Source of the DNA: Bryum argenteum
Taxonomy: Eukaryota > Streptophyta > Bryopsida > Bryales > Bryaceae
NCBI GenBank assembly: GCA_037043015.1
Contig: CM073327.1
Coordinates: 17,404,727 to 17,468,726 of the forward strand
Length of the DNA: 64,000 nt
Direction of reading: 5' to 3'
This document shows positions 4,230 through 43,751 of the stretch, piece after piece. Every line of letters begins with the position of its first letter. Position 1 is the stretch's first letter. Made by a program: the position numbers and the translations under genes. A model generated the notes under the pieces. That model was not told the DNA's origin. It saw nothing but the letters and a program-made list of their open reading frames with translations, and did not search any database.

Positions 4230-4323
4230 AACCCAAGAGGCTGCCACCTTCACCCTGCTCTCTCGTCAGCAGTTGCATTGACCTTTTGCAGTGACTGATC
4301 GAGAGATACATCAGGTTGGCATC

Positions 4324-8570: not shown

Positions 8571-8707
8571 GATGAGGAAGATCTACTTGCAAAGCTCCAG
8601 AGAAAGATGCATGGTGGCGTCAAAGTACAGGCAATTAAAAGAAGCACCAAAGAACCAAATTTAGAATCGTTTCCGTCATTCATTTCTTTCAGTAGTTGGT
8701 ACAGTAA

Positions 8708-9209
8708 GGGATGCTTTACATGGGGAGTCAAGGCCAACTAATCTCCAAGCCAATTCACTCACATTTTGAGCCCAATTGGCTCCATGGGCCACTTGGAGAA
8801 CACATTAGACAATTAATAAAGTGGGGGCCAATTCCCCCATGTGTAAAGCCCTTGGGGCTGATTTCTAAAAGGAAAAACAAGGCCATGGGGCCTATTCGTA
8901 TTATTAGCTACATTCCATGCTTTCGATTTGTTCACATTAAAGTATTTTAGTGAGATAATATTTTTTAATTGAAATCAAGAGACGGCCTCTAGGCCATGAA
9001 TTGGCCTTCCATTCTTGTATCTCCCAACTTTTGGAGCGCGGACCATGTCATAACTTGTTCCCCACCCATATAATATGTTTTCAGAAAATTGGCCTTGACT
9101 CCCCATGTAAAGCCCTTCGGGCCAATTTCAAGAATTGGACCAATCACAAGAGAGGATTTGATCATGAATTGGCCCCATCAATGGCTTGGCCCCTCGTGTA
9201 AAGCGGCCC
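8708..9209. mobile_element. PIF/Harbinger-type miniature element
   Basis: Left end GGGATGCTTTACATGGGG, right end CCCCTCGTGTAAAGCGGCCC (inverse). Flanked by TAA on both sides (8705-8707 and 9210-9212). A 3-bp TAA duplication with a GGG start is typical of Tourist/Harbinger miniature elements. Inside, the end sequence recurs as an inner inverted copy (TTGGCCTTGACTCCCCATGT near 9090). Related copies lie at 25790-26718 and from about 28696. Confidence 0.8.
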
Positions 9210-16189: not shown

Positions 16190-16269
16190 AACTCAAGAGG
16201 CTGCCATCTTCACCGTGCTCTCTCGTCAGCAGTTGCATTGACCTCTTGCAGTGACTGATCGAGAGACAC

Positions 16270-17697
16270 ATGAAGACAATGAAGCCTGCAGTGGTGTTGC
16301 TCTTGCTGGCTCTGGTGGCCATGCTTGCCATCCAGGCTGCTGCCACAGGTGGCTCAGGTGATGGCAAATCTGGTAAGGGAGACTCCAAGGGAGATTCTAA
16401 GCCTAGCAACGGCGGCAGTTCTGGTTCCGGAGGCGATGATAAGCACGGTTCTGGTTCGGGTTCCGGTCACGGAAGCGGCGGTGATGATGGCCACGGTTCT
16501 GGTTCTGGTTCCGGTTACGGGAGCGGCGGTGATGATGGCCACGGTTCTGGTTCGGGTTCTGGTTCCGGATCCGGTCACGGGAGCGGCGGTGATGATGGCC
16601 ACGGTTCTGGTTCTGGTTCCGGTCACGGCGGCGACGATGGTGATGATGACCACCATGAAGGCCCCAGCCCCGGCAACGGAGGAGGGTCCAGCCCCGGCCA
16701 CGGAGGAGGGTCCAGCCCCGGCCACGGCGGCGGCAAACGTACGTCCCGATCGATGCACCTCTCGTCTAATGCAGCATTCAATTCAAGATCTCTCTCGGTT
16801 ATTCGAGATTATCAGTATGCCGGTGTGGTATGCATTGGCTGTGGCCATAGCGTCTGAGTTGTGGTGATTGGCTGCAATGCGAGGTGGGTGTTGGAATGCT
16901 GAGAGTGTTTGTTGGATGCTGCAGCTGACTGCGGGAAGAAGGGAGGCATGTGTGGCGACCCAAAGATCGTGGGCGGCGACGGTGTGATGTTCTACTTCCA
17001 CGGCCACAAGGACCAGGACTTCTGCCTCGTCTCCGACAGCGACCTGCACATCAACGCGCACTTCATCGGCAAGCGGCCCGAGGGACGCCTGCGCGACTTC
17101 ACGTGGGTGCAGGCTCTGGGGTTCGTGCACGGGCCACACTCGCTCACTATCGCTGCCAAGACCGTTGGCAAGTGGGACAGCAGCGTGGACCAGCTGGAGC
17201 TGTCGTACAACGGCGAGACGGTGGCGCTGGACTCGAGGTCGTGGGCGTCCCCCGACGGCGACATGACGGTGAGCCGGATCGGCGCGCGGAACTCGGTGGA
17301 CCTGGTGATCAAGGAGAAGATGGGGGTGGCGCTGACGGTGGTGCCGATCACGAAGGAGGAGAACCGCGTGCACAAGTACGAGATGACGGACGCGGACTGC
17401 TTCGCGCACTTCGACATGCAGTTCCGGTTCTACAACCTGTCGTCGACGGTGAACGGCGTGCTGGGGCAGACGTACCAGCCGGGGTTCGTGAACCCGGTTC
17501 AGCGCGGCGTGGCGATGCCCATCATGGGCGGCGCGGACAGGTTCGTGAGCTCGTCGCTGCTGGCGACGGACTGCAAGATGAGCCAGTATACGGCGAGTGC
17601 GATCGCGCAGGGATCGGCGATGCCGAGCTTCATGGCCGTGTGCGGCAGCAGCGGGCTGCCGGCGGGAGTGCCCGGGGGGATCACGTGCAGGCGGTGA
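16270..17697 (+). CDS. Secreted Gly/Ser-rich root-cap-family protein, copy 2
   Basis: Exons 16270-16738 and 16925-17697, with donor C|GTACGT and acceptor GCAG|CTGAC, give 413 residues. The layout is as in copy 1: signal peptide, Gly/Ser/His/Asp repeat region, then the 257-residue conserved part ending ..GGITCRR. The repeat region is longer, with four GSGSGHGSGGDDGH-like units and two SSPGHGGG units. The conserved part has the same protein sequence as copies 1 and 3. By eye, exon 2 differs from copy 1 by as little as one silent base (ACCGTTGGC for ACCGTGGGC), while the intron differs at several percent of sites. The ATG is fixed because no upstream ATG is in frame here. Confidence 0.9.
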
Positions 17698-20722: not shown

Positions 20723-20752
20723 GTATTTAGCAGGGATGTCAATCCGGACGTC
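20723..20752 (+). repeat. Target duplication and left terminal repeat of the giant hAT
   Basis: GTATTTAG (20723-20730) is followed by the CAGGG start at 20731. Bases 20760-20820 then hold clustered CGGACGTCCG/GTCCGTCC words, as expected for subterminal transposase-binding sites. Confidence 0.87.
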
Positions 20753-20931
20753 TTTTGGGTTTTTTTGGTCGGACGGACGTCCGTCCGTCCAGGATCGTTC
20801 GGACGTCCGTCCGGGGGGTAAATCGGAATTACTATGCATGTAGTAAATTTTTTAATCGTCAGATCGTATTGAAAATCGCATCGTAGCCGTTCAAATAGTG
20901 TTGTGAGTGTAAGTGATTACCGTTGGATTCA

Positions 20932-21435
20932 ATCGGGCGGCCCAGGACCGTCCGATTGGCCTTGCCGACCGACCAGTCGACGCCGTCGGATCAGTCGCAG
21001 CCGACGGATCGGTCGCTGATCGGCCGCCCGGCCGTCCGACGGTCGCGGTTCGGATCGGCCGTCGGATGGGCCCCGTTGGCGTCGGCCGTCCGATCGGCCC
21101 GGTCGGCGTCGGCCGTCCGATCGGTCGCGGTCGGCGTCGGCCGACCGATCGGTCGCGATCTCCGTCGGCCGACCGATCGGTCGCGATCTCCGTCGGCCGT
21201 CCGTCGGCGGCGCGACCGGCCGGGTCGGCGGCGGCCGTCCGATCGGTTAAGGTCGACGCCCGGTGATCGGTCGGTCGGGTCGCGCGATGATCGGTCGGGT
21301 CGGCGGGCCGGTCGGCGCCGCCATCCGACGGCTCGGTCGGCCATGGCCGACGGTCGCGCCGGTCGGCGCCGGCCGTCAGATCGGGCGGGCCGGTCGGCCA
21401 TCGGGCGTCCGATCTAGGTCGCCGGTCGGCCATGC
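20932..21435. promoter_or_regulatory. GC block 1: dense CGGTCGG/CCGATCGG motifs
   Basis: About 500 bp of very GC-rich, CpG-dense DNA made of short words (GGTCGG, CCGTCCGATCGG, GGCGTCGGCC). It sits in an AT-rich genome, upstream of the kinase-like gene. Similar blocks precede each of the other three genes of the element. It may be an enhancer or a transposase-binding array. Long Arg/Pro/Asp-rich open frames here are composition artefacts. Confidence 0.7.
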
Positions 21436-21445
21436 AACCGCGGCC

Positions 21446-21452
21446 TATATAA
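21446..21452 (+). promoter_or_regulatory. TATA box of the kinase-like cargo gene
   Basis: TATATAA lies right after GC block 1 and 173 bp before the ATG at 21619. A CTCCTCACTTC phrase follows; the RING gene has CCCCTCACTTCTCC in the equivalent place. Confidence 0.6.
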
Positions 21453-21618
21453 GGCTGACCGGCCTCCACTCTCCTCACTTCTTTCCTTCGTTATCAGGGT
21501 GCGGAGTAGCTGTAGGTTGGAAATTTTTTTAATTTTCATCCACTGGCTCCTTATCCTGCGGTTGAAAGAAGTCTTTTCGTTTGTAAGGGGGGAGATTTTG
21601 CTTTTTTTTTTCACAAAG

Positions 21619-23113
21619 ATGCCCAAACATGGGGCTGGGGGTAGTGGGGGGAATCGAGGCCGGAGACCAAGGGTTGTTAGACATTTGGAGAAGTGGGAGC
21701 ACCCATCTAATAAGTGCAAGAACTTTCTTCGGGAGAATGTAATTGTGCGATTTTATGAGGCTAACAGTCTTCCACGTTTGTTTAGCAAATACGTGAGATA
21801 CAAAGAGGAAGCTGTGGCCAAATTCAAGGACGACATGATGGACCTCATGATGGAAGCGCTCCAAGATCCGGTGTGGAGAACGGAGACCGATAAGCGTGGT
21901 TTTACTGGATTTGGATGGAGGATAGATTAATTGATGCTCTCCGGAATCTTTGTCGACATATTGAAGAGGTATGAGAGAACCACTCGAGCGGGTGATGAGG
22001 AGTTCGGGGATGTGGTATTGAGGCGGAGGCTTTTCAAGAAGAGATGAGGCCGTATTCCAATAATGCAAACCGGGTTGGTTCCATAGGATGGTGGCGCGCG
22101 GGAACAAGGAAGGATAATGGAGCTGGGTTCGTGCGAATAATTTGGTAGTAATTCCTATGACGGCCCGTATCATCGAGCTTGAGAAGAGGACTCTAAGGGG
22201 AGGATACGGCACAATTTCCAAAGTTCACATAAGAGGGTTGTGGGTATTGAAGAGTTTTGGGAATTTCTTTGCAAAGACTCCCATCCATCTTTGTGACACG
22301 ACCGGACTTGGCGAAGGTGGAGCATCGTAATGAGGCGCTTCTTTGTGAGGATACAACATCCGTGTGTTATTCGTTTTATAGCCATTCATGCAAATAAATT
22401 CCAAGGCTATACGTATTGGTGGAATGGCGGCACGATTCGATCGATGTTGGCCCTTGATGCAAGATATGGAGATGATGTTCATGGAGAGATCGGACTCTCA
22501 CCTCATTCGATGATGAGCTTATTCGAGCTTGGCGGTTGTCCGGTTCCGCAAAAAACGAAGAGAGCTTGCTTGGGCTTTAGTGCATATCATGTGTGAAGTC
22601 CACCGGTTGAACTACCTCCACAACGATGTGTCTCCAGACAACATACTTCTTCACTTTCTTCAAGATGAATCACGGGTGTATATTGGAGTATGTAATTGGG
22701 GGCTAAGTACGAGCATGGATGATAAAATGAGGTCCTTGTATACGTTCACAAAACCCCAAGAGCGAATTGATACTCTACAAGCACGATATTGGGTAGATCC
22801 TCGGGTGGCGTACTTATACAAACGGAGTGATGAGATTCACATTATTCCCCTTCTTGATTGCGCTTCGGAGGAGTTTGCTACGGCACGAATAGCACAACGC
22901 ATCCTCAAGAAGAGCATGTCGAAGGCCTACGAGAATTGCCAAAGTACAACGGGGCCTGACCGGTGGTGCAATCAAGACTTGGCAAATGCTTTTGACCAAT
23001 ACTTGGAGATGGTGGCTGATGCAAAGTATACGTTGACCCACGTTGTCAACCGCTTCATGGAATCATTCCATTGGCCGGTGCCAAATGATCATTATCGCAC
23101 CAAGTATGATTAG
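21619..23113 (+). pseudogene. Protein-kinase-like cargo gene, frame-broken
   Basis: The first frame (21619-21930) begins MPKHGAGGSGG and has a basic, helical N-terminal region. Kinase landmarks then follow in order but in more than one frame: a Gly-rich loop RGGYGTISKV (about 22196-22228), HPCVIRFIAI (22357 on), a hinge-like WWNGGTIRSML (about 22410-22445), catalytic loop HNDVSPDN (22620 on) and CNWGLS (22691 on) where kinases have DFG. The last 194-codon frame ends ..DHYRTKYD at 23113. The frame changes at about 21917-22050, 22330 and 22530 could be introns or mutations; I see no convincing splice pairs, so I call it broken. The catalytic-loop Asp is kept but the metal-binding Asp of DFG is Asn, so it may have been a pseudokinase. 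Its role in the element is unknown. Confidence 0.65.
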
Positions 23114-23796
23114 CAAATTAGTTATGCGCATTTCTTTTAGTTCTTGCGGCTTTATTAGATTTTTAGATTCTTCATTGAAGTTCTGATGTAGATGTAGGCA
23201 AATTTTTTGTAGTAAAATGTATTACATGCCTTCTATATGTATCGGCTTCAAGTACATTCTTGTTTATATATACCTTGCACTGATTCTAATGAATGACTTC
23301 TTCTCCATTGTTTGTTATTTTATTTTATTACTTCTTACCTTCAATAGAAATATCTCCAAATCTTCATGAACAATATTTGAGAATTTATAATGAATTGTGG
23401 AACTTCTTCATTACATCAACCTTGCGTAGTTGCGATATTAATGGTTTGTCCGAAGTCAGCTCAAGCATAATATGACTTTTCTTACATATGTTTTTTTTTG
23501 AATGAATTGATGAACATATTATATGTTAGGTGAGAGTGTGAGACTGTGAAAAAAGGCTTAAAGCCAAACAGAAGAAATTATTACCACCAAGTGAACTTAT
23601 AGTATAAAATACAAAGACATCGCCATAAAATCCTTGAAATAACAAATTACATAGTATATTAATATACAACGATATAGTCCGATATTGGATAATCCATTCA
23701 TAAACAAAATATGGATTTCTGTATCCTCAAAATTGGCCCCTAGCAAGGCGATAATGGTGTAGACATTATCCGTTGCCAAAAACTACATAACCTTCA
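23114..23796. other. Spacer between convergent cargo genes
   Basis: AT-rich 3' regions of the kinase-like gene and the opposing gene. No coding signal is seen. Confidence 0.5.
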
Positions 23797-25142
23797 CTAC
23801 AATGACACTATGTATGATGATTTGTCATTCTTAATCCGATTCTTCATCATCGTGTTTACGACTTGTCGCAGCGCCGTAAGAAGGTGGTCCTCGAGAAGAT
23901 TCTCCAAACAAGTACGTTTGCCTAAAGTTTCTTTCGGCTTCAAGGTACATTCAATGTATTCCTGCTGACTTAGAAGTGTGGCTTGTTGCAGATCTTGTTG
24001 GTACCTCGCCTCTTCATCCTCCGGAGATAGATAAGGTGCTGAAGGCAGGTCGTTACTTCCGTATGCATTTTGACCATATCCATAATTTGTGTAGCCAACA
24101 ATGTCTGATCTTCTATCATATTGACCTCCATACTCGTATGTTTCCTTCGGGTGTGATGGCCTACGGTATTCGGGACTTCCGAATGTTGTACCGTATTGGT
24201 TCCCACGATTGTATGGGTTTATAGGATGAGTTGGGCTTGAGTTGCATTGAGCATTGGATCCGCTACCCTGCTCACCTCCTAAACCATGTGTACCTCCTGT
24301 ATACATTGGAGATGGGTAGTTCGAACTAGATCCATCTCTACCGTACTCGCGTTCGGCTCCGTCGTGTTTTTCTTTGATGAGGTGGCATATAACTCACCGA
24401 TCTCGAATTGGTGGTTTCCATGGTAATACCCCTCACTTCCAGTGCCAAAGGATACGGGTGCTTGACGATCGTCATGGTTTGAGTCTTCTTGAGTGCCCCC
24501 ATATGCCCTTGGAGTTCCATGTTGTTGAAGTTGGGCATCCATATCACCAACGTTCGAGAATCGTGAGTATAACAATCGCTTGGTCCCATCCAATTTGTGG
24601 GAATGAATCGGTTCTTTGCGATCCAATAAATGCACGTTCAAACCTATCACAAAATGTCCACTCAATGTCCTTGTGCGGGACTATTTCAGCCCACACCATG
24701 GCCATGGTAGAATACAACATCAATTCGGCCTTGTGTTCTTGATTCCAATCGCAATTGTGACTTCGTGATATCTCGTGCGCAAAATGATCGCTCTTGCAAC
24801 TCTTCACCGGGCCTTCACGACGAGGACCATATTTCTCTCCGCTTCGTGCAGCGGCCATAACTTCATGATGTGGTACATCTTCACGTACTTCTTGCACATG
24901 GTGCAATTCCAAATGTCCGCCTCTCCTCTCGCCAACCCGGCTCGCAACACGCTTTGGGTCACTCCATGCTTCCCAATCCATTTTTGGAGGGTCGCCCTTT
25001 GGTCGTGGAGACTTGGCCTCGCCCCGAACGTGAAAACTTGGCGCCATTTCCAGCGCCGACAAGTATGCGCGGTGTGGGCGTGGGTGACCCACGCGAACTC
25101 CGAGTAACGCATCGATGCGGCTTTAAAAAAGCCGCAACGCAC
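23797..25142 (-). pseudogene. CKKYVKMYH-family cargo gene, frame-broken
   Basis: Read right to left. A frame starting at 25142 reaches CTMCKKYVKMYHIMKLWP (about 24850-24905), a Cys-rich block. Another frame then carries SCKSDHFAHE and AELMLYSTMAMVWAEIV..DIEW (about 24665-24800), and a last one (24306-23797) holds a Tyr/Gly-rich low-complexity tail (YEYGGQYDRR, YGYGQNAYGS) and EDEEARYQQDLQQATLLSQQEY. The first two blocks align with the gene at 30.9-31.3 kb. The nucleotide differences there fall mostly at third codon positions of the CKKYVKMYH frame, which identifies the true frame. I recognise no known family; the two CxxC-like pairs could bind zinc. At least one frame change separates the blocks. 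Confidence 0.6.
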
Positions 25143-25179
25143 ACTGCTTCACTGCAGTGAGGGACAATGAGCCCCTCCT

Positions 25180-25188
25180 CCTATTTAT
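25180..25188 (-). promoter_or_regulatory. TATA-like box of the 25.1-kb minus-strand gene
   Basis: On the minus strand, ATAAATAGG follows GC block 2 and precedes a leader with CCCTCACTGC. The placement matches the other three genes of the element. Confidence 0.5.
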
Positions 25189-25195
25189 GCCGACC

Positions 25196-25550
25196 GGGAT
25201 CGGACGCCATTGGCCACCGGCATTGGCCGTCCGATCCGGCCGGCAGCACCGTCAAATCGGCGATCCGGCTGCCGGCGATCCGGCGTCGGCGATCCGGCGG
25301 CCGGCGACCGGCGGTACGACCGATCGGTCGTGACGTCCGATCGGTCGATCGGGCCGTCCGATGGCGCAGCCGACGGCCGATCGGGCCGTCCGATGGCGCA
25401 CCGTCGACGGCGACGGGGCCGCCGATCCCGGCCGACCGGCGACCGGTCTGCCGACCGGCCTGGCGACCGACGACCGGGCCGGAGACCGACGACCGGGCCG
25501 GCGACCGACCCCGTCCCCCGGGCGACCGGTCGGTCGCTCCTTCCGCGTCT
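25196..25550. promoter_or_regulatory. GC block 2
   Basis: GC-rich array of CCGATCGGTCG, GGCGACCGG and GGCCGTCCGATGG words. It lies upstream of the minus-strand CKKYVKMYH gene and at the border of direct repeat R1. Its end (GCGACCGGTCGGTCGCTCCT) is repeated at 28430-28449. Confidence 0.7.
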
Positions 25551-25789
25551 CCCCCTTCCCCCTCCTCCTCTTGCCTCACCCCAAAACTCCCCGTTTGCAC
25601 AACTTCGAACACTTCCTCGCCTTGAGAACCTGCATTTTCAAAAGTTCTATATTTAGCCTCTTTGGTCCACGTGGCGTCTAAATAAGGACAGGGAATGTTC
25701 TGACAAGGGAATGTCGGGAATGTCTTTTTGTCATAAACGGGAATGTTTTATGACAAAGATACTATCCGCTTTAAATAAACCTATAATAA

Positions 25790-26718
25790 GGGACTCTTTG
25801 CAAGAGGAGGGAAGGCCAACAAATCTCCAAGCCAATTCACGCACTTTTTGAGTTATGTTGCCCAATTAGCTTTAATTGAACAATACATTTAACAACCAAT
25901 TTAGTGGGGCCAATTTTCCGAGTCGTGAAGTCCTTTGGAGTTGAAGCCCATGTCTAGAAGGAGAGCCAAGGCCATGGGGTCAATTCTTATTATTAACTAG
26001 AGTCCATGTTTTTTTTTTTGTACACATTTATTTTTTATTTTTTATTTTTTGGAATTATTCTTCCCTAACACCTTAACAACCATGGCCACCATTTCGTCTT
26101 TTATCGTCACGGCCAAAAAATGTTTCATATTCAATTTCAAATGTAATGATCTCGCATCTAGTGATGATCCAACGGTTGAAGATTTCACACTACTACATAT
26201 GGTAGTTTACTCAAGATCCTATGGTTGAAATTATAAAGTATATCCAAAAATATTGGACATAGCCCCTTTGTAGTGAAACCACCTATTCTCGTACACTTAA
26301 GGAAAATTGAGGGAATCTATATACTTGGTGTGAGAAAGGAGTGGGTTACTATTTTTCACGGATAGGAAATAGAAAAAGACAAGCTAACCCTATTTATGTG
26401 CTTTTTTAAAGCACACACATAAAGAAATACAAATTTTATAAGGAGAAGCCTAAAGGCGGGCACCCTAAATATGTACGCATAATGTAAATGCAAGGGAGGT
26501 GAGATCTTTATAAAGTCAAGAATCTTTGCCTCGCGCCTTTAGGTGGTTTCATCATAGTTCATAGTGGTGAGTGCTAGTATTGCAAGCTCCCATGGATTCA
26601 CATTCATTTCTTCTATCTCCCAACTTTTGTCAAAATTTATCCATTCTCACTAGGAGAATTTGCCATGTCTTGGCCCCCATTCATGACTTGCCCCATACAA
26701 TGTACCCTGAGGTGGCCC
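25790..26718. mobile_element. Harbinger-type miniature element with an inner insertion
   Basis: Starts GGGACTCTTTGCAAGAGGAGGGAAGGCC and ends ..GTACCCTGAGGTGGCCC, flanked by TAA (25787-25789 and 26719-26721). It is related to 8708-9209. Its extra length comes from an inserted segment (about 26066-26580) related to the TTAA-flanked element at 29753-30020. Confidence 0.7.
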
Positions 26719-27505
26719 TAAATCCCCTCTGATTACATTCCATAAATTTTACCTAGTCCTTGGTGAGAGTATATTGATGTCTCACATTGGAGAGATCCAA
26801 GTATATATGAAATGTAGGTGATCATGTGTGAGCATTTACTTTTCATAACACTGGTCTTACTGAGTTTGTCAATATTTAGACTTTCTATTTGGGCCTTAAC
26901 ATTTCCACATTGTATGGTCTATATTAATTGATGGGTATTTGGAAATTACTCCGTCGTTGTGTATTCTAATTAGTAATACTTATTATAAAAATATGGTGCA
27001 TAAACAATTAATTCTATTATTCGCTATTTTTTGTTTGACAACCTTCAACTAACCTAGGAGAATATATATAATCTAGTACATATGATTAATTGTAGCATTA
27101 TTCTTATTGTATGGATTTGAATAGTTACTTATTTCCCTCTTACAAAGGTAATTGAAATAAGTTTTCATTGTTACTATTTTTGCAATCATAAAATAAGAGA
27201 AATAAATAGGGAGACAAATAAATTTTAAAAAATATCCCACCCTATAAGTGTTCAACATATGGCAATAATGGCATCAACTTCTAAATTTTTAAGCATATTT
27301 GATATTGTACAAGTATAGTACATTAGTACTAGGATTAGATGTTATATCAAATTGATTATTCGTATACTATGATTGATTGATTTGGGAATAGAATATTTTG
27401 AAGAGCCATCACTTCTTCATTTACTGTATGTAATGGATACATTCTCTTGTGGATAAACTTTAAGTTCTTGGTTAAAGATGTATGAATTACTATGTAGGCC
27501 TCTAG

Positions 27506-27572
27506 GGTATAGGGTTTAGGGTATAGGGTTTAGGGTATAGGGTTTAGGATTTAGGGTTTAGGGTTTATGGTC
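27506..27572 (+). repeat. Interstitial telomere-like tract
   Basis: Alternating GGGTATA and GGGTTTA units, ending in TAGGGTTTAGGGTTTATGG. It is close to the plant telomere repeat TTTAGGG. It lies inside the giant element, in R1 only. Confidence 0.75.
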
Positions 27573-28246
27573 TTGAGGATTTGGGGTGGATTTCATTTTA
27601 ATCCTAGTTTTTGTGTTGCAAAGCTTTGCAAACACAATTGTGTGTGGATGTAAAATAATGGATTACTGTATGTATGGATTAGTTCTCAATTATATTTTAC
27701 ATGGATACAAGTTGCACTTATCTACATCGCATAGTTAATGTGTGCAAAATAATCTATTTTGTATTTATCATTTTTGATTGAAGATGTTATTGACATGGAA
27801 TAAATCACACATTTATTGCAAAGAATATATAGGTACAATATTAAACATCAACATACGAATTATGATTCCTGAGTCTTCAATCTCATAGCCTATTTTAAAC
27901 CAATATTGGAATAGAGTTACTATTGTATGTCATGTGGCTCAGAGTTTAATTCATAGAGCCTCATAGATCATAACGTATGAGTACTGAAGTAGTATTTGTA
28001 CGAAACATCTTTGAATTCGTGAAGATCTATACTTTTATGGAGTTCACTCGAAATGGTTATGAACTTAAAATTTAAAGTTCAAATGTATCCGTGAAAAAAG
28101 AATACTTAGCATTTGAAAATCAACATAGGATTCCTTTTTCATTGTGTAGTAATTATCAAAAATCGAGTAATGTAAATCTTTGAGAAATAAAAAAGGATCC
28201 TATGCAATTTTATCTTATTTTAGTTATATATTTAAGGAAAAAAATT

Positions 28247-28450
28247 AAAAAAAAAAAAAAAAAAAAAATCATCTGCCCCCATTTTTCGGTTGGCCGCCAT
28301 CCAAGGCGGCGTCACGCGCCCGGCCGCGTCCGGCGACCGGCAACCGTCCCAGCGTCCGGCGACCGTCCGGCGACCGCCCGACCGCCCGGCGACCGCCCGA
28401 CCGGCTGGGGACCGACCACGCGTCCGGCGGCGACCGGTCGGTCGCTCCTT
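28247..28450. promoter_or_regulatory. Poly-A run and GC block 3 (no gene attached)
   Basis: A run of A residues (28247-28268) is followed by about 180 bp of GC-rich DNA (GGCGACCGCCCGACCG, GCGACCGGTCGGTCGCTCC). It resembles the other blocks of the element but has no gene next to it. It marks the junction of R1 and R2. Confidence 0.6.
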
Positions 28451-29752
28451 CCGCGTCCCCCCTTCCCCCTCCTCCTCTTGCCTCTCCCCAAACTCCCCGT
28501 TTGCACAACTTCGATCACTTCCTCGCCTTGCATACCTGCATTTTCAAAAGTACTATATTTAGTCTTTATGATCCACGTGGTGTCTAAATATGGACAGGGA
28601 ATTTTCTGACAAGAGAATGTCGGGAATATCTCTTTGTCCCATGCGAGAATGTTTTATGACAAAGATACTCTTGGCTTTAAATATATCCATAGTAATGGAC
28701 TTTCTTCAAGGGGAGTTAAGGCGAGCAAATCTCCACGCCAATACACTCACTTTTTGAGTTGTTGTGCCCAATTGGCTCGAATCGAAGTAAACATTTAACA
28801 ATCAATATAGTGTGGTCAATTTTCTCATTTGTGAAGGCATTGAGAGTTCATGCCCTTGTTTATAAGGAAAGCAAAGGCAATGGGGCCAATTCTTATTATA
28901 AGTTAAAGACCATGCTTTTGATTGTACACCTTAATTTATTACTGTTAAAATATTCCTTCTTAACCCCTAAAGATCCATGGACACCAAAGTGGAGGTTTCC
29001 TATTTCGGCAAACTTATATGAAGAGGTCAAAAGTAATAATTTTTTATTAAATTTTTTCTAGGTGGTCCTTACACCGCAAAGTGCATGTGGTAAAATTTGC
29101 ATATCCAAATTCCAAATTTACAACCTACATCTATAATATTTACGTTTGAAGTCCACTAAGGGCAGTTAAATTTAGTCTTTGTTTGAAATTCTTTTTTGGA
29201 AATATGTTCATGAACAATTTACTACTTCAGTTCCAAAGTGACCCAAGTCAAAATGTTTGTCTATTTCACAAGGGTACCGTTGAGAGATTACAAAAATAAT
29301 CTTCACAATTTCTAGTAATTTCCGATATAAGTCATATAACTCTTTCTTCGATTGATTGTTTTGAAAATATAAAATTTTAAATAGGCATCTCTTCTTCATT
29401 TAGAGTATCTAGTGGATAAAATCACTCGTGGATAGGATTTGTGGTTTATGATTTAGGATGTATGAATAACTCTTTAGGATGAGTTCCAAAATAAGTGTCC
29501 TACATTAAGATTAGGATACTCCAATTGACATTCTCAACCATGCAATATTGGAATAGAGTTACTGTTGTAGGTCATGTGGTTAAAAGTTTGATTCATGAAG
29601 CCAATGGTCAATTAAATTACAAAAGGAAAATAGAGAAAAAAGATATTGATTCGAAACCAAATGAATGCCTTATGTTTGAAACATCTATTAATTTGTGAAG
29701 ATTTACACTTTAAAGAGTCCACTCAAAATGGTTATGAACTTAAAATTTAGAG

Positions 29753-30020
29753 TTAACCCCTAAACGACCACGGCCACCGATTCGGCGTTTACAGTGAAGG
29801 AAAAAATAATTTACAGTCAACTTCAAATGTTATGATCTCACATCTAGTGATGATCCAACGGTTAAAAATATTCACAGTACTACCAATGGTAGTCTACTTC
29901 AAGATCCTACGGATGAAATTATCAATAATTTCCAAAAATATTGGACGTACCCCATTAGTACATAGTGGTCTCGTGTTGGGATTTCAAGCTCCCGAAACAT
30001 TGTGGATTTTTAGGGGTTAA
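29753..30020. mobile_element. piggyBac-like miniature element, CCCCTAAA family, in R2
   Basis: TTAA at both ends (29753-29756 and 30017-30020), with inverted ends CCCCTAAA / TTTAGGGG. The flanks 'aacttaaaatttagag' and 'gatgtatccgtgag' are contiguous in R1 around 28078-28081 (TTCA), which is the empty site. Confidence 0.85.
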
Positions 30021-30158
30021 GATGTATCCGTGAGAAATAATATATTGCATTTCGTAAATCAACATAGGATTCCTTTTTTCAAAGTGTAATAATCACGAGA
30101 ATCAAATAACAAAAACTTTGCGAAATAAAAAAGGATCCTATGCTATGTAAGATCTCTC

Positions 30159-30161
<3 letters not shown>

Positions 30162-30246
<85 letters not shown>
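30162..30246. repeat. (AT)n microsatellite
   Basis: About 40 AT repeats followed by A-rich DNA. The equivalent place in R1 has only 'tatatttaagg' plus poly-A, so it expanded after the duplication. Confidence 0.95.
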
Positions 30247-30247
<1 letters not shown>

Positions 30248-30281
30248 TAAAAAAATGAAAAAATTAAAAAAAAAAACAAGC

Positions 30282-30505
30282 TGCCGCCCACATCGGTCGG
30301 CCGCGTTGGTCGACCGGCATCGGTCGGCCGGCATCGAGCGGCCACATCGGTCGGCAGCGACCGGCCGGCCCGAACGACCGGCCACGATCGGCCGCCCCGA
30401 TCGGGTCGACCGGATCGACCGCCACGTCGATCACGGCCGGACCGGCCGGCCAAAGACGGTCGCGGCCGTGATTGGCCGAAGGACCGTCCGACCGGCCGGT
30501 CTCTA
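30282..30505. promoter_or_regulatory. GC block 4
   Basis: GC-rich array (GCATCGGTCGGCCG, GATCGGCCGCCCCGATCGG, GACCGGCCGG) directly upstream of the RING-type cargo gene, mirroring block 1 before the kinase-like gene. Confidence 0.7.
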
Positions 30506-30524
30506 GGGTTGGGAGGAAGGGGGG

Positions 30525-30532
30525 ATAAAAGG
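30525..30532 (+). promoter_or_regulatory. TATA-like box of the RING-type cargo gene
   Basis: ATAAAAGG lies after GC block 4, about 205 bp before the first plausible ATG (30730), followed by CCCCTCACTTCTCC. Confidence 0.55.
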
Positions 30533-30729
30533 CCTTTGGGGCCTCATTTCCCCTCACTTCTCCTTGTATTCATCCATCTCAACCGAGCCGCAACCGTGGG
30601 CATTAGCTTCTCGTGTCTTTGCATTTGTGGTGGCGGGGGAAGTCGGCGTGATACTTGCATGGTCAGCTGCAGTGAATTTTTGCATACTTGGGATATCTTC
30701 GGGGTATTTTAAATACTCCCTATTCTTCA

Positions 30730-33700
30730 TGGCGACGGATATTGATAACACGAACATGGAGGTCGGTTCGAAACAGACCTTGAGGTCACTCATGACGAAA
30801 AACCACAAACGCAGGATTGGTGGGGACCGAGTTGGTTTTCCATGAGACACCGTCAAAGAGAGTGAAACCAAAAGGAGCGAGACATGAGTTGCACTACGAT
30901 ATCTTGGATAATGAGGCCATCAAAGCCGAGAGCGGTTGGGCCAATGAACCGGAGGAATCTTTGGAGAATGGCGACGTGCAAGAAATATGTGAAGATGTAT
31001 CACATTGGGAAACTTTGGCCTCGAGAATGTCACAAAGTTAATACCAATAATTTTACTTGCAACCCTCAAACATGCAAGGATGATCACTTCCTTCATCGTG
31101 CTGAAGAAGTTTGGGTGGCATTGTTTGGAACTCGTCCCAAGAGCAAGGGTTATTTTTCATATACGCTCTTGAGCATGGTGTATGCTGAGCTCATATTGAA
31201 GCGCAAGGTGAACTGGAGCACATTCACGCCGAGTAGTGCATATCCTCTTCGAATCGGGAGAAATCAAAAGGATATCCCTCATAGGTTTGATCCAGAATCA
31301 AACTCTACAAAGGCCTTATTGCAGTACTTGAGGAGGAAAACTCACGAGACGGCGGAGAAGGAATCTCCTCCAACAACCACGACACATCAGGAGGATGGAA
31401 GGAATATGGTTGCTACGGATGCCCCAATCGTAGAACCAACTATAACTGATAGGCTCGAAGGTGCAAACGTAGTTGAAGAACCTCGTGAAACCCCGGTACC
31501 AACACCAGAGGAGGCAGGGCCAAGTGAACCACGGGAAACCAGAGCACCAACTTCTCCCATGGATGACATGGATCTCGATTCGGGTGCGGCGCCAAAGTTT
31601 GAGAGGTATATGCGTTATCAAGTACCGGATAACACATTGGATGAGTGGATGAAAAAAGCAAAAAGTTTGGCAGATTGGTGCAATGAGGTAGATAAAGAGG
31701 AAGGTTTGCCAGGGAATCATTGGCCTGAGACTACGGGTGAACAGATAACTAATCTAGGGTACAACTTGAAGATGGGGTCAGAAATACTTGCGGATATGGC
31801 TCCAAAATTTGTGGGGATGGCTCATAGTTTTGCAGGTGTCATGCCCAACGTTCTACTAGCTGCCAACAATTTTGAGGCACTCGTAGATCGGTTTGAACCT
31901 CTACTGAAGGACCGAGTGAAGACTGAGCTAATCATTGTGAAACAGGAGAAACAACAGCAAATTACGCAACGTCTCCTTGACGAGTTCTACAGGGAATTGC
32001 GGTTGTTTGGCCAAGGTCCTGCTAGCAAGTATGAGGTAAAGTACCAAGAAGCAATGCGCCAAAAGGATGCGGTAGAAGACTTAGAAGATGACCAATTCAC
32101 CTATGTTCCATCACAGAATGACACTCAGGGGGCTTCATGTAGTCACGTTGTTCCAGAATGTGATGCGGGTGGTAAAGACGATGGTAAAGAGGATGGTGAA
32201 AAGGATGGTAATAAAGATAAGGGGAAGACCATTATCGGGACTTCTGATAGTCTTTTTCTTTCACAAATTGATTCGGGTGGTAAAGAGGATGGTGAAGAAG
32301 AGAAGAGAAAGACGTATATCAGGGATTTATCTCCTCTCAAAGAGGTTGGTGAAGAGGATGGTAAAGAAGATAAGGGAAAAACCATTATCGAAATAGACGA
32401 TGATGACGATGATGAAATTCGGGGGGGAATTGAAGTTAATATCACAAAAAGAGATAGATGATGCACAGATTGAGCGACAACGAGCATGGGCGATGGAGTT
32501 CGCAGCACTGAAGAAGGAGAGAGATGTTACAGTTGCGAAATTGGAGGAGGAAGCAAAAGCATGCTCAATGAAGTTGGAGGCTACAAGTAAAGAGAGAGAT
32601 GAGGCAGTCGCTGAATTGGAGGCATTACGGAAAACCTTCAAAACGGTAGATTCTACAGAGGCAAGTCTCCACCTTCACCTACGCATACTACCATGGTTGG
32701 AATGGGTTCATCGACTTCAAGATAAGAGGAGCTTGGTTTCGAGGGCAAAAGAAGATCTCAAATCGATTGCATCTACATCAAAGGAATCACGTGAAGTTGT
32801 AGATGCTTCATTGGAGAAGTTACATGCGAACAGATCAAAAAAAACGATATGACCCCATAGAGGTCACTTTTTGGGGGGATATTGAAGAGATGATGGAGCG
32901 TACAAACTACTCTAAGATGGGACGAAACAATGATGTTGATTGGACTATGAAGATAGAGGAAGGATGGGCGCCGTATAGTAGATTCTCATCGCACCTACAA
33001 GAGTCAGCTCGCATTGTAATCAACACATGCGACCCTCCTCCCGCAATACTTAAAGACAAATGTGCGGTGTGCCTACATAATTTTGGTCCGGAGGGCGCAT
33101 ACACGTTAGGCCAATGTAGCCATAACTTTCATGTTACTTGCATATGCCGATATGCGATGACTAAATCGGTATGTCCAAAGATGTCGCTCCCCATTTAGCA
33201 CGAGATTCTACGAGATGATGGGCATACGAGATCTTATGCCACCAGGGCACGAGTTCAACCGATGGAATCTTCCATTGGATCAATACCCGAAGAAATTTCT
33301 AAACTACTCTGATTGGGAAAATGCTCTTACCTGGAGTACATCCGAATCAAAACACCAACTAGCCATTCAATTTGGTGGGGATCATGATCAGTTATTTTGG
33401 ATGACACGAGATTACGAAATAGAGATCAGGGCGAGGAATATTGAAGGTGATGAGCAACGAGAGTTGTTTTGTCGTAATTTCGGGGGGCATTGGAGCGTCG
33501 AACACAACCGTTTCTTTCGATTTCCTCCAAAGAAAGTGGAAAAGGGAGAAGATGGTTCGTGGCACGAAATAACCGATTCAACAGGCTTTGGTGAGGAGTA
33601 CAAGAAGTACGATCATACTCCAATTGGAAGAGCTCTGGTACTCGCAAAATTGGAGGAGGCCGCAATATTCCGGATTTCGATACCGGAAAATTCTTTTGAA

Positions 33701-33994
33701 GATGTGGAGGTCTCTTATTGGGATGCGGTGAAGAAGTTTGATACGCGTATCGATGACGCCATTACATTTTGGAGAGAATGTCTTTTAAACCCAAAAGACA
33801 CACAACTTCTATTATTGGATGAGTTTGAAGGTGTTGTACAGGATGTCATTGCAAAGATCGAGAAGGCCATGGAAATCTTACATAACAAACAAGTGGATTC
33901 GAGCAAAAAGCGGAAGAGGCAATCGGGCGACGATGGGGAGGATAGTTGGCGGCGGTATGAGAGGCGAAATCGCGGTGGTGGATCGAGAGTATGA
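30730..33994 (+). pseudogene. CKKYVKMYH / coiled-coil / RING-H2 cargo gene, frame-broken
   Basis: From an ATG at 30730 (MATDIDNTNMEVGS) the reading passes through more than one frame into a 525-codon stretch ending at 32461. This holds CKKYVKMYHIGKLWP (about 30981-31025), CKDDHFLHRAEEVWVALFGTRP, FSYTLLSMVYAELIL, then acidic, Lys-rich repeats (DGKEDGEKDG). A second frame (to 32852) is a charged coiled coil (KERDVTVAKLEEEAKA; KERDEAVAELEALRK). A third (32803-33198) carries a RING-H2 pattern: CAVC, 14 residues, C-x-H-x2-H-x2-C, then C. The last Cys (in CRSPFSTRFYEMMG) lies in the frame continuing into 33215-33994, a 259-codon end with NRWNLPLDQYPKKFLN, PIGRALVLAKLEEAA and a basic KKRKRQ tail that may be a nuclear signal. 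RING-H2 proteins are usually E3 ubiquitin ligases; its use to the element is unknown. At least three frame changes. Confidence 0.65.
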
Positions 33995-34130
33995 AGAGGG
34001 CGGTCGAATTGCCCGTCCAAGTCAAAGACCGCGTCTCGCAGTGTAGCTCTGGGATTGGCCAATCGGATGGATCTTGATTTGAAGTTAGAACGGATGTTGG
34101 ACCTTAAGTTCCACATATATAACTATACAT

Positions 34131-34131
<1 letters not shown>

Positions 34132-34208
<77 letters not shown>
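34132..34208. repeat. (AT)n microsatellite
   Basis: About 38 AT repeats in the 3' region of the RING-type gene. Confidence 0.95.
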
Positions 34209-34210
<2 letters not shown>

Positions 34211-35232
34211 TTTTTTTAGATTGTATGGTTGTTGTTTTAAAAATGATGAAAATGCCACCATTGATCCATGGGGCCTTATTTTTGAAGTAAAGGGTTACAA
34301 TCTTTTTGATTTAATGTGCATTTCTTTTGTATGCTTGAGAGTGAAGACTATCGTACGACAAGTATGTAAAAATATATGTAATATTTTTCAAAACATTAAA
34401 TGTAGTCATGTAGACAATAGAATCTCCAAATGCATTTCGAGTATAACAATAAAGTACTACAGTAAACTATAACTACAATTTCTATAATAAGTATAAGTCC
34501 TATGACCCTATACTACATAAAGATGCGAAGTTCAACTACTCATCAGGACCAGAGCATTGCTCATAATCGCTATCTCCCTTCACTTCAGCTCCACTAGATC
34601 CCGTAGGATCATATTCATAATCGCTTGGAACCTCCTCTTTGATCTTGGGTTTATTCTCTGGACATTGTATATTCCCATACTTATGCCAAGTATCAAATTT
34701 GGGGAGATTAACAGGGATCTTCGGTTTTTTAGGCGGAACAATTGGAACCGTTGCGATTTACATTTTATGCGACTTGGAAGTGCCAAGCATGTCTTTGAAC
34801 CCCGTGGCGAGACGAAGAACATTGGCATTCTTTAAATACCGCCCAACGGTACATCGTAGTCACTAGAGATGCTCCTATATTTGGCTCTTGAAAGGGATAC
34901 TAAACCCTTAGACGATTTCTCCAAGGTTGTCGTAACCCTTGTAGTAGAGGTTGAAATAAAGCGCGGGAGTAGCACATTGATCGATACTTGATCCTTACTA
35001 CCGGATGCAATATTCTCCGCGACCGGGATCGAGCTCATAGTGCCCGCAGCTGTGTTACACGCAATGGTCTTCGCATCTATCGCCTCCTTTTCCAACCGTA
35101 AACCAGTAGCGATAACAGGTACGACGTTATTTGATTTGTCCATGCCACCTTGTGTCATTAACCGGGCTAACGGCCGCTCATCATCTAGATCATCCGGCCG
35201 AAAGACCATGAGCGATAAAATCACCATTAGCA
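34209..35232. other. Spacer downstream of the two convergent genes; possible transposase 3' extension
   Basis: Minus-strand frames at 35236-34835 (MMLMVILSLMVFRPDDLDD..) and 34828-34580 are open and lie directly after the transposase. The transposase stop overlaps the next ATG (ATGA). They show no known domain and may be 3' untranslated sequence or a decayed C-terminal extension. Confidence 0.35.
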
Positions 35233-37432
35233 TCATGGAACATTTGGAGCATCTTCATCATTTGAAGCGGGGAAGAAAGTCATATCATCATCTTCATCGC
35301 CAAATTCAAAAACATCATTGTCATCAGACTCTGATTCGTCCTCGACAGCTTCCTCATCATTCTCATGTACTTGGTCTTCCTCTAAATCCAAGTTCTCTCT
35401 ATACCACCGCCCATCATCACTCAACTTATCATTCGCGAGCAATTTCGAGTTGGAATATATGTAGACCAAGTCATCAGCTCTGCCCGGTAGTAACCGATTC
35501 CGTTTCTTGTCGTGAACATAAGAGTAGCTACTCCAGTTGCGTTCGCAAGCTGACGAGGACACGGTCTGTGCTAGTATTCGCTTTGCAATTGGAGAGAGGA
35601 GCTTAGCACAAGCACCTTCAAACTCCCACCATGCATGAGGAGCTAGTTTTTGAGTATTAGGCTCCAGCATGTCATGGAATGGTGGACCCCTTACTCGAAA
35701 CGCAAGAAATTCACTGACCACATCTGCGTAATCCTCCGCGGGACATAATTTTTGTAAAACACGCTTGCAAGCTATTGTAAGATCGGGATCGTCAGCTAAC
35801 TCTTGGTCGTGTAGTAAATAAGGATTTAAAAGTGCAGCCGCGCCATGTAAATCCGTTGTCATGAGCCGTTTCCGATGGTAAAACTCCTCTTTTGCGGTGG
35901 CCACCTCAAGTGGTTCCAATGAGATGGGCGGTGCATGCAAAGTATGGACATGTCTCTCAAGATCACGCATGATATGCCATGCCTGTACTAGGAGCCTTGC
36001 CGTCGAATTCTCTCAGAGCGTACACCACGGGGGCAACCATATCCCGTAGTCTTTTGCATTGCTTCCAAAACTCATCGCTCAACACCACCTTCTTAACCTT
36101 ATGTGAGAATATAAGCTTATCTCTAGCAGATACCGTATTCTTCGAGGCATAGGCTGTGAACATAGGGTCGACAACAACTTGCTCCAATGATTCCTTGACC
36201 TCCAACAAGCGATCTATCATTATGAATTGACTAGCAAATCTTGTTTTCCCAGGCATCAGTAGGCTGAATTTCGCCTCGTGTTTACGAAACACAGCTAGGG
36301 GCATTTGTCGCCTCTTGATAAACTTGACCATTTTCTTCGCCATGACCAAAGTATTCGCCATCCATCCAGCCTTTCCCCAATCCTCCAACAACAAGTCCAT
36401 TGCATGTGTCGCACACCCTTGCATGAAAATGTGCGGATATTTCTTAAGGACTATTCTTGAGGCATTGAGCATTACAGAAGCATTGTCTGTGCATACTTGA
36501 ACAATGTTCTCTGGTCCAACTTGTTCTATGTACTTCAACATGAGAGTTGACATGTACACCGCTGTTTTTTCTTGGCCAGTAGTATCGACAGCACCAAGAA
36601 AAAGCTCTCCGGCTTGAGTCACGAGCATCGCATTCACCAAAGGGCGACTAGTCACAAATGACCATCCATCCATAGTCAAAGTTCCTCCAAACTTCCGAAG
36701 GCTCTCAGAGAGTCTACTATCTAGTTTCTTTTGTAACTCCGTCTTTACTTCTCCTAACAACCTTGTCCGAATGTCATGGTAGGATGGTGGAGCATAGGAT
36801 TTTCGAAATCCCGCTGTCTTCATCACGGCAGCTTTGAACGCATCATTGCGGGCTACTGAGAATGGTATATTTGCTTCGTAAAAAAATTTCGCCCAGAGTT
36901 TATCCAACTCCCGCCTTTCCGCTTCTGCAAAAGTAGCTTCAATTGAAGATTGCTTCGTTTGCTTCATAGATCCAAACATCGGGCGAGTATCCCTTATTCC
37001 CCTTATAAGCATGGAAGAAGCAAAGGTTGACCCCACCAAAAGATTTGTTGAATTCATGGGGGTGCCTAGCGAGGACCCTACACAAGAGTCACTCCTAGGG
37101 GTTTCAGGAATGTCATGTTTTGAAGCACCTGGAACATCCGTGGATGGAGTGAGAGAACATTCACCGAGAAATAGTTCCAATTCTCCGTTATATGGAGGGA
37201 ACTCTCCACCACATCTTAAAAATAACTGCCTAATTTCCCTAGGCAGCTTTGGGCAAAGGGCAGAACTCGAATCCCTATGTCCAGGAATCTTCTCGTACCC
37301 ATAATGACTCAAATTCCGACTCTTCTTCTTCGAAACAATTACATGACATAGTGAGCACTGTAGGAAGGACCCAGACGCTTTGCCTTCCTTCTCGATGTCT
37401 CTAAACCAAGGCTCATATGGAGCAGGGCCCAT
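35233..37432 (-). pseudogene. hAT-superfamily transposase (BED, DUF659, hAT-C), one frame break
   Basis: The first frame (37432-35963, 489 codons) begins MGPAPYEPWFRD and has a BED-type zinc finger (CSLCHVIVSKKKSRNLSHYG..PGH..CPKLP, about residues 26-64). A DUF659/RNase-H-like core follows, with TLTMDGWSF (first Asp), LFLGAVDTTGQEKTA, VCTDNASVM (second Asp), CATHAMDLLLEDW and KTRFASQF. The second frame (35970-35233, 245 codons) holds HAWWEFEGA (candidate Glu) and the hAT C-terminal dimerisation motif (SSSACERNWSSYSYVHDKKRNRL), then an acidic tail. The frames overlap by eight bases at GCATATCATGCG and no intron fits, so a single indel is likely. It faces the RING gene and ends the element with its promoter inside GC block 5. 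hAT transposases cut and paste DNA and make 8-bp target duplications, as seen here. Confidence 0.87.
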
Positions 37433-37630
37433 TTTGATAAATAGGACGCCTCAAAGTCTTAAACAATGGTGGGACCGTGACGGGGAAAAAAATGGCAAGA
37501 GTTCCTTACGGAAATCCTCACTTCCGAACTCAATACCTACCAAGCAATGTACACATAAAATGAATTATGTGGCTCATAGCTCTTGGAAAGTGTTCAAAAT
37601 TCGGAAGTGAAATGAGACTCAATGTGTCTT

Positions 37631-37640
37631 CTCTTATATA
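37631..37640 (-). promoter_or_regulatory. TATA box of the hAT transposase
   Basis: TATATAAGAG on the minus strand, about 200 bp upstream of the transposase ATG and just inside GC block 5. Confidence 0.6.
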
Positions 37641-37714
37641 CCATCCAACTCCGAATATGACCGTTGCAATTTGAAGTTGAAATGCTCCTAAACCGTTGGA
37701 TGCTCAAAAGGGCC

Positions 37715-37880
37715 ATCTGGCCGTTGGCGGTCGCCGGATGCGAGGGCCGGTCGCCGGGGCTGACGGCCGGACCGACGGCCGGTCACCCGCGGCCGACGGC
37801 CGGTCGGCCTGGCCAGCCGACCGGTCGGTCGGGCCGACGGAGAGGTCGGGGACCGGTCGACGGGGTGGTTCGACCAATGA
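37715..37880. promoter_or_regulatory. GC block 5, right subterminal region of the giant hAT
   Basis: GC-rich words (GGCCGGTCGCCGG, GACGGCCGGTCGG, GACCGGTCGGTCGGG) upstream of the transposase. Farther out, 37930-37972 has ACGGACGG and CCGGACGTCCGG, echoing the left end. Confidence 0.7.
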
Positions 37881-37961
37881 ACGCACCCCGTTGGTCATTT
37901 ACCCTTAGTAAAACGACCAGATTTTCTAAGTCACGGACGGTCCCCGAACCCCTGCCGGACG

Positions 37962-37991
37962 TCCGGACGCTGTGACATCCCTGGTATTTAG
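37962..37991 (-). repeat. Right terminal repeat and target duplication of the giant hAT
   Basis: TGACATCCCTG ends at 37983 and is followed by GTATTTAG (37984-37991), identical to the eight bases before the left end. Confidence 0.87.
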
Positions 37992-43001: not shown

Positions 43002-43648
43002 GTCAAAAATCGTTTTTTTTTTTTTTTGACGTTTTGAGACCCAAGACATGCCTTGTGCACTTAGTGCTTAGTATATAGAGATAGGCTAGCCAAAGTGTTA
43101 CATTCATGTAAATATGTACTACGTAGGTCTTAAGACGATTGCTACACAACTTTAGAGAACATACTACATATTCACAAGGCTATGGTACCGTATTTTTAGA
43201 AAAAGCTCGTCAACTGGTACATGTGACGACGTTTTCATTTCCATTTTGATGTCCCTGAAGTTCCGAAAAGCCTGACATGCTGAACCGAAAAAACTTGATT
43301 TTGGCTCTGAAGGCAAATGATCTCCGAACTGCACTCGAAAAACCAGCTCAAATCAGATAGTAGTGTCCTAAACATCGCAATTCCATCACAAATAAAAAGG
43401 AAACGATTTTATCATGTTGCTATGGTAACGCTTTTCCGTCTAAAAGGACAAAAATAAAAATCTACGAAAATAAAAGTCCCTTTGAGAGGTAATTATCCAA
43501 TCCACGAACACCATCATCGGGACCCACTGCTCTGCTTTTCCTCGAGCGGCCCCGCATACCGCTCATGTAGTCAGGCCCTTGAACGATAGCACTTGCCACA
43601 ATGCTACAGCAGCATGCTATGGATTCGATCCAGTTGCATGTAGTGGAG

Positions 43649-43657
43649 TATATATGG
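43649..43657 (+). promoter_or_regulatory. TATA box of root-cap copy 3
   Basis: TATATATGG, 103 bp before the ATG, in the same context as copies 1 and 2. Confidence 0.75.
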
Positions 43658-43751
43658 AACTCAAGAGACAGGCCAAATCATCCCGCCCACTCGTCAGCAG
43701 CTGCATCGACTTCTTGCAGTGACTGATCGAGAAACCCATCAGGTTGGCGTC

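Follow-up and report, generated by a model that had tools for sequence, protein, structure and literature searches.

The 64,000-bp stretch of the Bryum argenteum genome analysed here (positions 17,404,727 to 17,468,726 of contig CM073327.1, assembly GCA_037043015.1; hereafter the window) harbors a 17-kb hAT transposable element with four genes, designated A to D, of which D encodes the transposase. The element is bounded by an 11-bp terminal inverted repeat (TIR), CAGGGATGTCA, located at 20731–20741 on the plus strand and, inverted, at 37973–37983 on the minus strand, both assigned by exact match and by genome searches with a 22-mer of the left and a 24-mer of the right end. Immediately outside, sequence matching identifies GTATTTAG as the target-site duplication on the left (20723–20730) and on the right (37984–37991). 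An earlier reading of the window made from its letters alone (the sequence-only reading) had proposed inverted ends and a perfect 8-bp duplication 17,253 bp apart, with related words just inside both ends; re-reading of the coordinates confirmed this distance from outer end to outer end, and words of the CGGACGTCCG type were found again directly inside the left and the right end. The two TIRs are the sole exact matches to the 11-mer in the window, which contains 15 matches if up to two mismatches are allowed. Within the element, a copy with one mismatch lies at 37105 and two further copies carry two mismatches, and an exact 11-mer search returned no third exact TIR inside it. The octamer GTATTTAG occurs four times in the window versus 2.26 expected occurrences and is informative only because two of its copies adjoin the two ends.

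Gene D (34539–37432, minus strand) encodes a hAT transposase with DUF659 and Dimer_Tnp_hAT domains, which comprises about 973 amino acids in open copies and is broken in the window. Pfam matches of the window copy to PF04937 (E 2.2e-34) and PF05699 (E 1.1e-12) bear out the hAT transposase that had been predicted near the right end. The hAT dimerisation domain PF05699 is also matched, with an E of 1.8e-9, by the transposase of a second family described below (family 2; the window element belongs to family 1). Pattern matching detected the motifs MDGW, TDNA, CxxH and ERNW in the two transposase pieces of the window and in family 2, which we take to represent the catalytic D, D and E and the CxxH residues of hAT transposases. 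The transposase further contains an N-terminal CxxC...H stretch, Pfam scans returned no BED match, and a PDB search yielded four weak and unrelated matches with E of 0.064 or more. Open versions of gene D, 951–976 amino acids long and devoid of stop codons, are found at six family-1 and two family-2 places among 88 rows. In addition, the hAT TIR consensus [T/C]AGNGNNG, as given in the accessible text of a survey (PMC6027215), is matched by CAGGGATG in family 1 and by CAGGGTTG in family 2. By its short TIR, 8-bp duplication, dimerisation domain and catalytic motifs, the element is a hAT.

The three non-transposase genes predicted inside the element are present, although all four reading frames are interrupted in the window copy by comparison with copies in which they are open. 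Gene A (21619–23113, plus strand), delimited by a profile and by open copies of about 530 amino acids, is protein-kinase-like: the alignment of both families retains the YGTI loop, the AAK lysine, HND[VI]SPDNILL and CDWG, which we read as kinase motifs. The boundaries of gene B (about 23834–25042, minus strand) are approximate and were mapped from the copy at C7:11301384. Gene C (30729–34079, plus strand) consists of an N-terminal domain common to gene B, a charged middle and a RING-H2 finger; the finger matches PF13639 with an E of 1.7e-7 in the window, which passes the cut-off, and of 2.4e-9 in another copy. The N-terminal parts of B and C match at 42% over 104 codons and, judging by this alignment, the two genes are paralogous in that domain. 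Scans against NCBIfam gave no match above the cut-off. Open frames survive in several other copies: a stop-free gene A of 530 amino acids was found in four of 110 rows and a stop-free gene C of more than 1,000 amino acids in six of 84. Of the scored matches, 80 of 110 for A and 55 of 84 for C are interrupted by stop codons.

The sequence-only reading had suggested searching the host for further copies with the same ends and content. We searched one genome of 259 Mb on 25 contigs, ten of which measure 16.8–44.1 Mb. Allowing up to two mismatches, the left-end 22-mer matched 189 and the right-end 24-mer 213 places, with no match for either reversed-pattern control. For pairing, 100 of the 189 left and 100 of the 213 right ends were supplemented by BLAST to 103 and 110, respectively, some of the right-end boundaries among these additions being estimates, and each left end was assigned to whichever right end in the correct orientation lay closest, up to 60 kb away. 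This resulted in 58 pairs among the ends listed, 57 of them distinct since one copy has two left-end matches. A right end stands 15–19 kb from 38 of the 103 listed left ends, equal to 37 distinct copies, while none did so in any of eight shifted controls. Hence, the search recovered at least 37 end pairs of the predicted kind, and the two ends do not behave as parts of two separate elements. The shortest nearest pair spans 13,478 bp, a single left-end match together with a BLAST right-end match suggests a copy of about 12.0 kb, and for 45 of the 103 left ends no matching right end on the list lies within 60 kb. Short derivatives may exist, but they are uncommon among the listed ends.

The copies also correspond to each other between their ends. 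The copy at C2:3727397-3744258 aligns with the window element from end to end, at 92–96% identity in its main blocks, the left subterminal block reaching 81%. Insertions and deletions aside, collinearity also holds for those at C8:13082340, C1:24966788 and C7:11301384, whose main blocks are at 90–96%, and in three of the four copies BLAST reports the left subterminal block separately, at 81–87%. In bins of 500 bp the identity is mostly 94–99%, with 83–93% in GC-rich arrays, and one copy drops to 87 and 79% in two bins of gene C; the copy at C7:11301384 carries insertions in the transposase region. Gene linkage was analysed for A, C and D on lists of the best 81–108 of about 950–1080 candidates each, so that the counts are lower bounds, a single gene being represented in some cases by several fragment rows. 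A convergent D match lies 8–20 kb from 35 of 110 A matches (0–2 in eight shifts, one in the same-strand control) and at most 10 kb downstream of 37 of 84 C matches (0–1 in shifts), and a same-strand C match follows 7–16 kb on from 34 of the 110 A matches (0–2 in shifts). At least 19 places have A, C and D all in order.

Target duplications were scored for the 44 of 57 distinct pairs in which both junctions were read. The 8-bp duplication is perfect in 36 of these, has one mismatch in three and two mismatches in two, and is absent from three, two of which have estimated boundaries where no TIR stands. Among the 37 distinct pairs spanning 15–19 kb, 33 possess a perfect duplication. The 36 perfect duplications represent 35 different octamers, with ATTCGAAT occurring twice in differing flanks, and therefore stem from independent insertions. 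Two copies of 30.9 and 34.9 kb likewise show perfect duplications, suggesting that other DNA inserted into them later. We also searched for unoccupied sites with the joined flanks of six copies, scoring the best 40 of 1055 candidates. For four of the six copies, paralogous sites spanning the junction were found at 92–100% identity: 100% for C7:4597640-4597892, 96% for C2:17084298, 93% for C1:12852421 and 92–94% for as many as 37 empty sites of the copy at C1:20642376. Loci lacking the full segment thus exist, and the proposal that the whole segment moves as one unit is supported by the end pairs, the duplications, the collinear copies and these empty sites.

A related but diverged transposase, 70–71% identical and matching from residue 24–25 onwards, is encoded at nine places and defines family 2; a tenth row at 71% with six stops was left out of this count. 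Locus L122 (C1:26433800-26443700) contains C and the transposase, ordered and oriented as in family 1. Locus L123 (C1:35385400-35395300) contains A, with 57–61% identity where it matched, and B (29–40%), again in family-1 order, and its last stretch corresponds to sequence found upstream of gene C in L122. The copy that bears L123 also has a D match at C1:35399986 and is bounded by the ends CAGGGTTGTCA and by the duplication GTCCACGT on both sides, with a length of 18,299 bp. Families 1 and 2 hence agree in the set and order of their four genes, with about 30–70% protein identity. Among the matches listed, no gene A match lies within 40 kb of the nine family-2 transposases. The right end of L122 abuts a family-1 gene A fragment (L122 9294–9898, 91.6% identical) and a search with candidate junction sequence found no left junction; judging by the right end, the L122 element seems to have inserted into a family-1 copy, and the two families may insert into each other.

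We compared the two families by the Nei–Gojobori method (NG86), the resulting ratios of nonsynonymous to synonymous divergence (dN/dS) being rough as dS exceeds 1. For D, dN/dS is 0.19–0.26 over most of the gene and 0.33–0.34 at the C-terminus. Values for C are 0.18 at the N-terminus, 0.31 in the middle and then 0.28, 0.22 and 0.27; A yields 0.29 and 0.25 and the C-terminal part of B 0.37. The same genes in the same order in both families and the low dN/dS between them indicate that A, B and C are long-term residents rather than recent cargo. The term cargo used in the sequence-only reading is therefore misleading for three genes that are shared with family 2 in order and show purifying selection. 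Within family 1, selection was considered and rejected, as the copies are too similar and near-neutral, with dN/dS of 0.96 for C and 0.76 for D in one copy pair each, so that copies decay with little constraint. Such a pattern is usual for genes that are maintained while the lineage remains mobile and that decay once a copy has inserted.

GC-rich arrays accompany the genes. The left subterminal array (20740–21445), composed of CGGACGTCCG and CGGCCGGTCGG words, extends up to the TATATAA of gene A, and the right one (37715–37972) lies upstream of the TATATAA of gene D. Further arrays are located at the promoters of gene B (25180–25560) and gene C (30285–30510). Eight hexamers of the CGGCCGGTCGG type, picked by eye, were counted in 20740–21445, 25180–25560, 28310–28470, 30285–30510 and 37715–37875, where they reach 84–155 per kb as against 0–1.4 per kb in six stretches elsewhere in the window, and they are commoner in each array than in any of its 500 first-order shuffles. 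TATA-like boxes mark the gene-facing side of the arrays for A (21446), B (ATAAATA at 25188, minus strand) and D (37640, minus strand), positions that rest on a plain scan without a chance control, which also matched AT repeats; GGATAAAAGG follows the gene C array at about 30524. From this arrangement, the subterminal arrays appear to double as promoters of A and D, with B and C having arrays of their own. An ARAGORN call of a tRNA-Arg at 30353–30441 sits in the gene C array and was treated as spurious.

Between the arrays of B and C extends a non-coding centre (25561–30160) with internal duplications, in which the array at 28310–28470 is promoter-like and has no adjoining gene; its neighbour at 28486–28785 is an 84% copy of 25580–25879. 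This orphan array may be a promoter, either left over from a fifth gene that has been lost or driving a non-coding RNA. At 27503–27587 the centre contains a (TAGGGTT)n run, a repeat of the plant telomere type. The stretch 25441–30142 aligns with L123 5357–9284 in blocks of about 71–85% whose order is not kept, even though dS of the genes exceeds 1. Part of the centre matches 8705–9194 of the window, outside the element, at 74–86%, and some of its blocks may belong to a dispersed repeat.

Taken together, the window element is very probably one defective copy of a giant, approximately 17-kb, four-gene family of cut-and-paste hAT transposons. Several observations weigh against this interpretation, and all of the evidence comes from one genome of one species. 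One of the four further copies, at C7:11301384, is without gene C. The check for an empty paralogous site succeeded for four of six copies, but among the best 40 of 1055 candidates no empty site was found for C4:25594807 or for the window copy. A separate search that scored all 18 of its candidates yielded no close one for the window copy either; its six unoccupied paralogues are continuous across the junction at 67–70% identity and too diverged to show the octamer. The bounded family-2 copy was read for its A, B and D match, the gene C body lying outside that reading, and the middle of gene C aligns at 34% identity only. With respect to selection, the between-family ratios carry the roughness noted above, YN00 gives 0.60 for the C-terminal part of B versus 0.37 by NG86 and was limited to B, with no value for A, dS of the N-terminal part of B is not estimable, and the within-family ratios are those of near-neutral sequences. 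As for the proteins, the kinase Pfam match is weak and below the curated cut-off (E 4.8e-4 in family 1, 1.5e-5 in family 2), a PDB sequence search for the kinase gave weak matches (best E 2.5e-4), gene B has no Pfam domain above the cut-off, and AlphaFold models of the window kinase C-lobe and the C N-terminal domain are too poor for use, with mean pLDDT of 42 and 48, respectively.

Ordinary hATs, too, capture coding DNA, and A, B and C might be host genes that were captured once by such an element and carried passively, in the manner of Pack-type or cargo-bearing transposons. Plant Pack-TYPE DNA transposons are described in the accessible text of PMC8903248 as capturing coding DNA, and the near-neutral decay of C and D within the family, the two genes tested, would agree with passive carriage. 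A single capture is, however, difficult to reconcile with the same genes in the same order and orientation in family 2 at dS above 1, with NG86 ratios of 0.18–0.37 for A to C (albeit 0.60 for B by YN00), with the N-terminal paralogy of B and C and with an element-type GC-rich array at the promoter of each gene. We thus consider this scenario unlikely, and a recent capture was judged unlikely owing to the second family, while the ultimate origin of A to C may be a host gene. Less probable still is that the extra genes, as cargo, benefit the host or pass from species to species in the manner of Starships: the large size and the purifying selection between families would fit this as well, but the stop codons in most scored A and C matches together with the near-neutral divergence of C and D fit selection on the element rather than on the host, and Pfam scans of the four genes revealed no tyrosine recombinase domain. 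A composite, in which ends of different hATs or nested insertions flank unrelated genes, would account for the several subterminal-like arrays inside the element and the duplications in its centre, but was rejected as barely credible in view of the 37 distinct pairs of near-equal length, 33 with perfect duplications, the collinear copies, the lack of any pair below 13,478 bp among the 58 nearest pairs of listed ends and of an exact inner TIR, and the TATA-like box beside three of the inner and subterminal arrays.

For the four-gene hAT family, we propose that the gene D product would recognise the 11-bp ends and very likely also bind the subterminal CGG-rich arrays, excise the element and reinsert it with the 8-bp target duplication that is observed. 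With a GC-rich array and a TATA-like box per gene, the element probably co-regulates its four genes. A, B and C would be kept because they help the element, as suggested by their common order in family 2 and by dN/dS well below 1 for all of them. Such help could consist in regulating or assisting transposition, or in a kinase and RING-ligase pair that counters host silencing. Given their conservation with the transposase, the shared promoter type and the decay in old copies, A, B and C probably serve the element as helper, regulator or counter to silencing. More tentatively, and with greater doubt than the preceding, these elements could constitute an ancient lineage of giant hATs whose kinase, RING-type ligase and B protein, a partner with the N-terminal domain of the ligase, form a counter-defence or helper module expressed from promoters built on the arrays bound by the transposase. 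The element would thereby control its helpers and disarm silencing by the host while moving as a single unit of 17–18 kb. hAT elements are usually pictured as small, one-gene transposons. Four genes kept through deep divergence and at least 37 near-full-length copies indicate that plant hAT transposition is not limited to small units, and transposon-encoded kinase-like and RING proteins offer a testable system that may show how plant transposons evade silencing.

In the neighbourhood, three near-identical genes in the same orientation are located at 4282–5660, 16255–17697 and 43644–45247 of the window, each followed downstream by an open frame of 264 amino acids with a Root_cap domain (PF06830, with equal E-value in all three), and the element sits between the second and the third copy. 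On the minus strand at 56410–58567, a carboxyl-methyltransferase gene of the SABATH type is split into segments that align with consecutive stretches of PF03492.

When compared to known systems, the window element resembles Ac-like plant hATs such as Ac/Ds and Tam3 in its TIR consensus, the 8-bp duplication and the C-terminal hAT dimerisation domain, and Ac has CGG-bearing subterminal repeats as a further likeness. Ac-like elements, however, are a few kb in size with one gene, whereas 17–18 kb and four genes are found here. Ordinary hATs also give rise to many short derivatives, in contrast to the absence of pairs below 13.5 kb among the ends listed here. Autonomous DNA transposons of plants that possess conserved helper genes include MuDR/VANDAL and CACTA elements, but their superfamilies and transposases differ from those of the window element; a CACTA element of 20.5 kb is reported for soybean in the accessible part of PMC2613891. 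Pack-type elements are non-autonomous and contain captured fragments, unlike the window family with its own transposase and genes common to two families. Starships are likewise large gene-carrying DNA transposons, usually far larger, but in the descriptions at hand they are fungal and employ a tyrosine recombinase, a domain not detected in the four genes here. The longest plant hAT consensus in the accessible text of one survey measures 7,144 bp (PMC6027215). In titles and the beginnings of abstracts of open-licence PMC articles, a scope that covers neither Repbase nor subscription papers, no giant multi-gene plant hAT was found, and 'hAT' as a whole word is absent from the accessible text of a review of giant transposons (PMC6431247). 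The claim of the sequence-only reading that a cargo-bearing hAT of such size is undescribed thus stands for plants within these sources, but has a partial precedent in ToxhAT of fungal wheat pathogens, which likewise combines large size, TIRs and several genes in a unit associated with a hAT. As far as its accessible description goes, ToxhAT spans 14 kb with 74-bp TIRs, eight open reading frames and a nested second transposon, and its authors identified no target duplications and called it composite (PMC6737239), which sets it apart from the window element with its 11-bp TIR and target duplications. Within the literature covered, ToxhAT is the nearest precedent, and the window hAT stands out by its unusual size and four resident genes.

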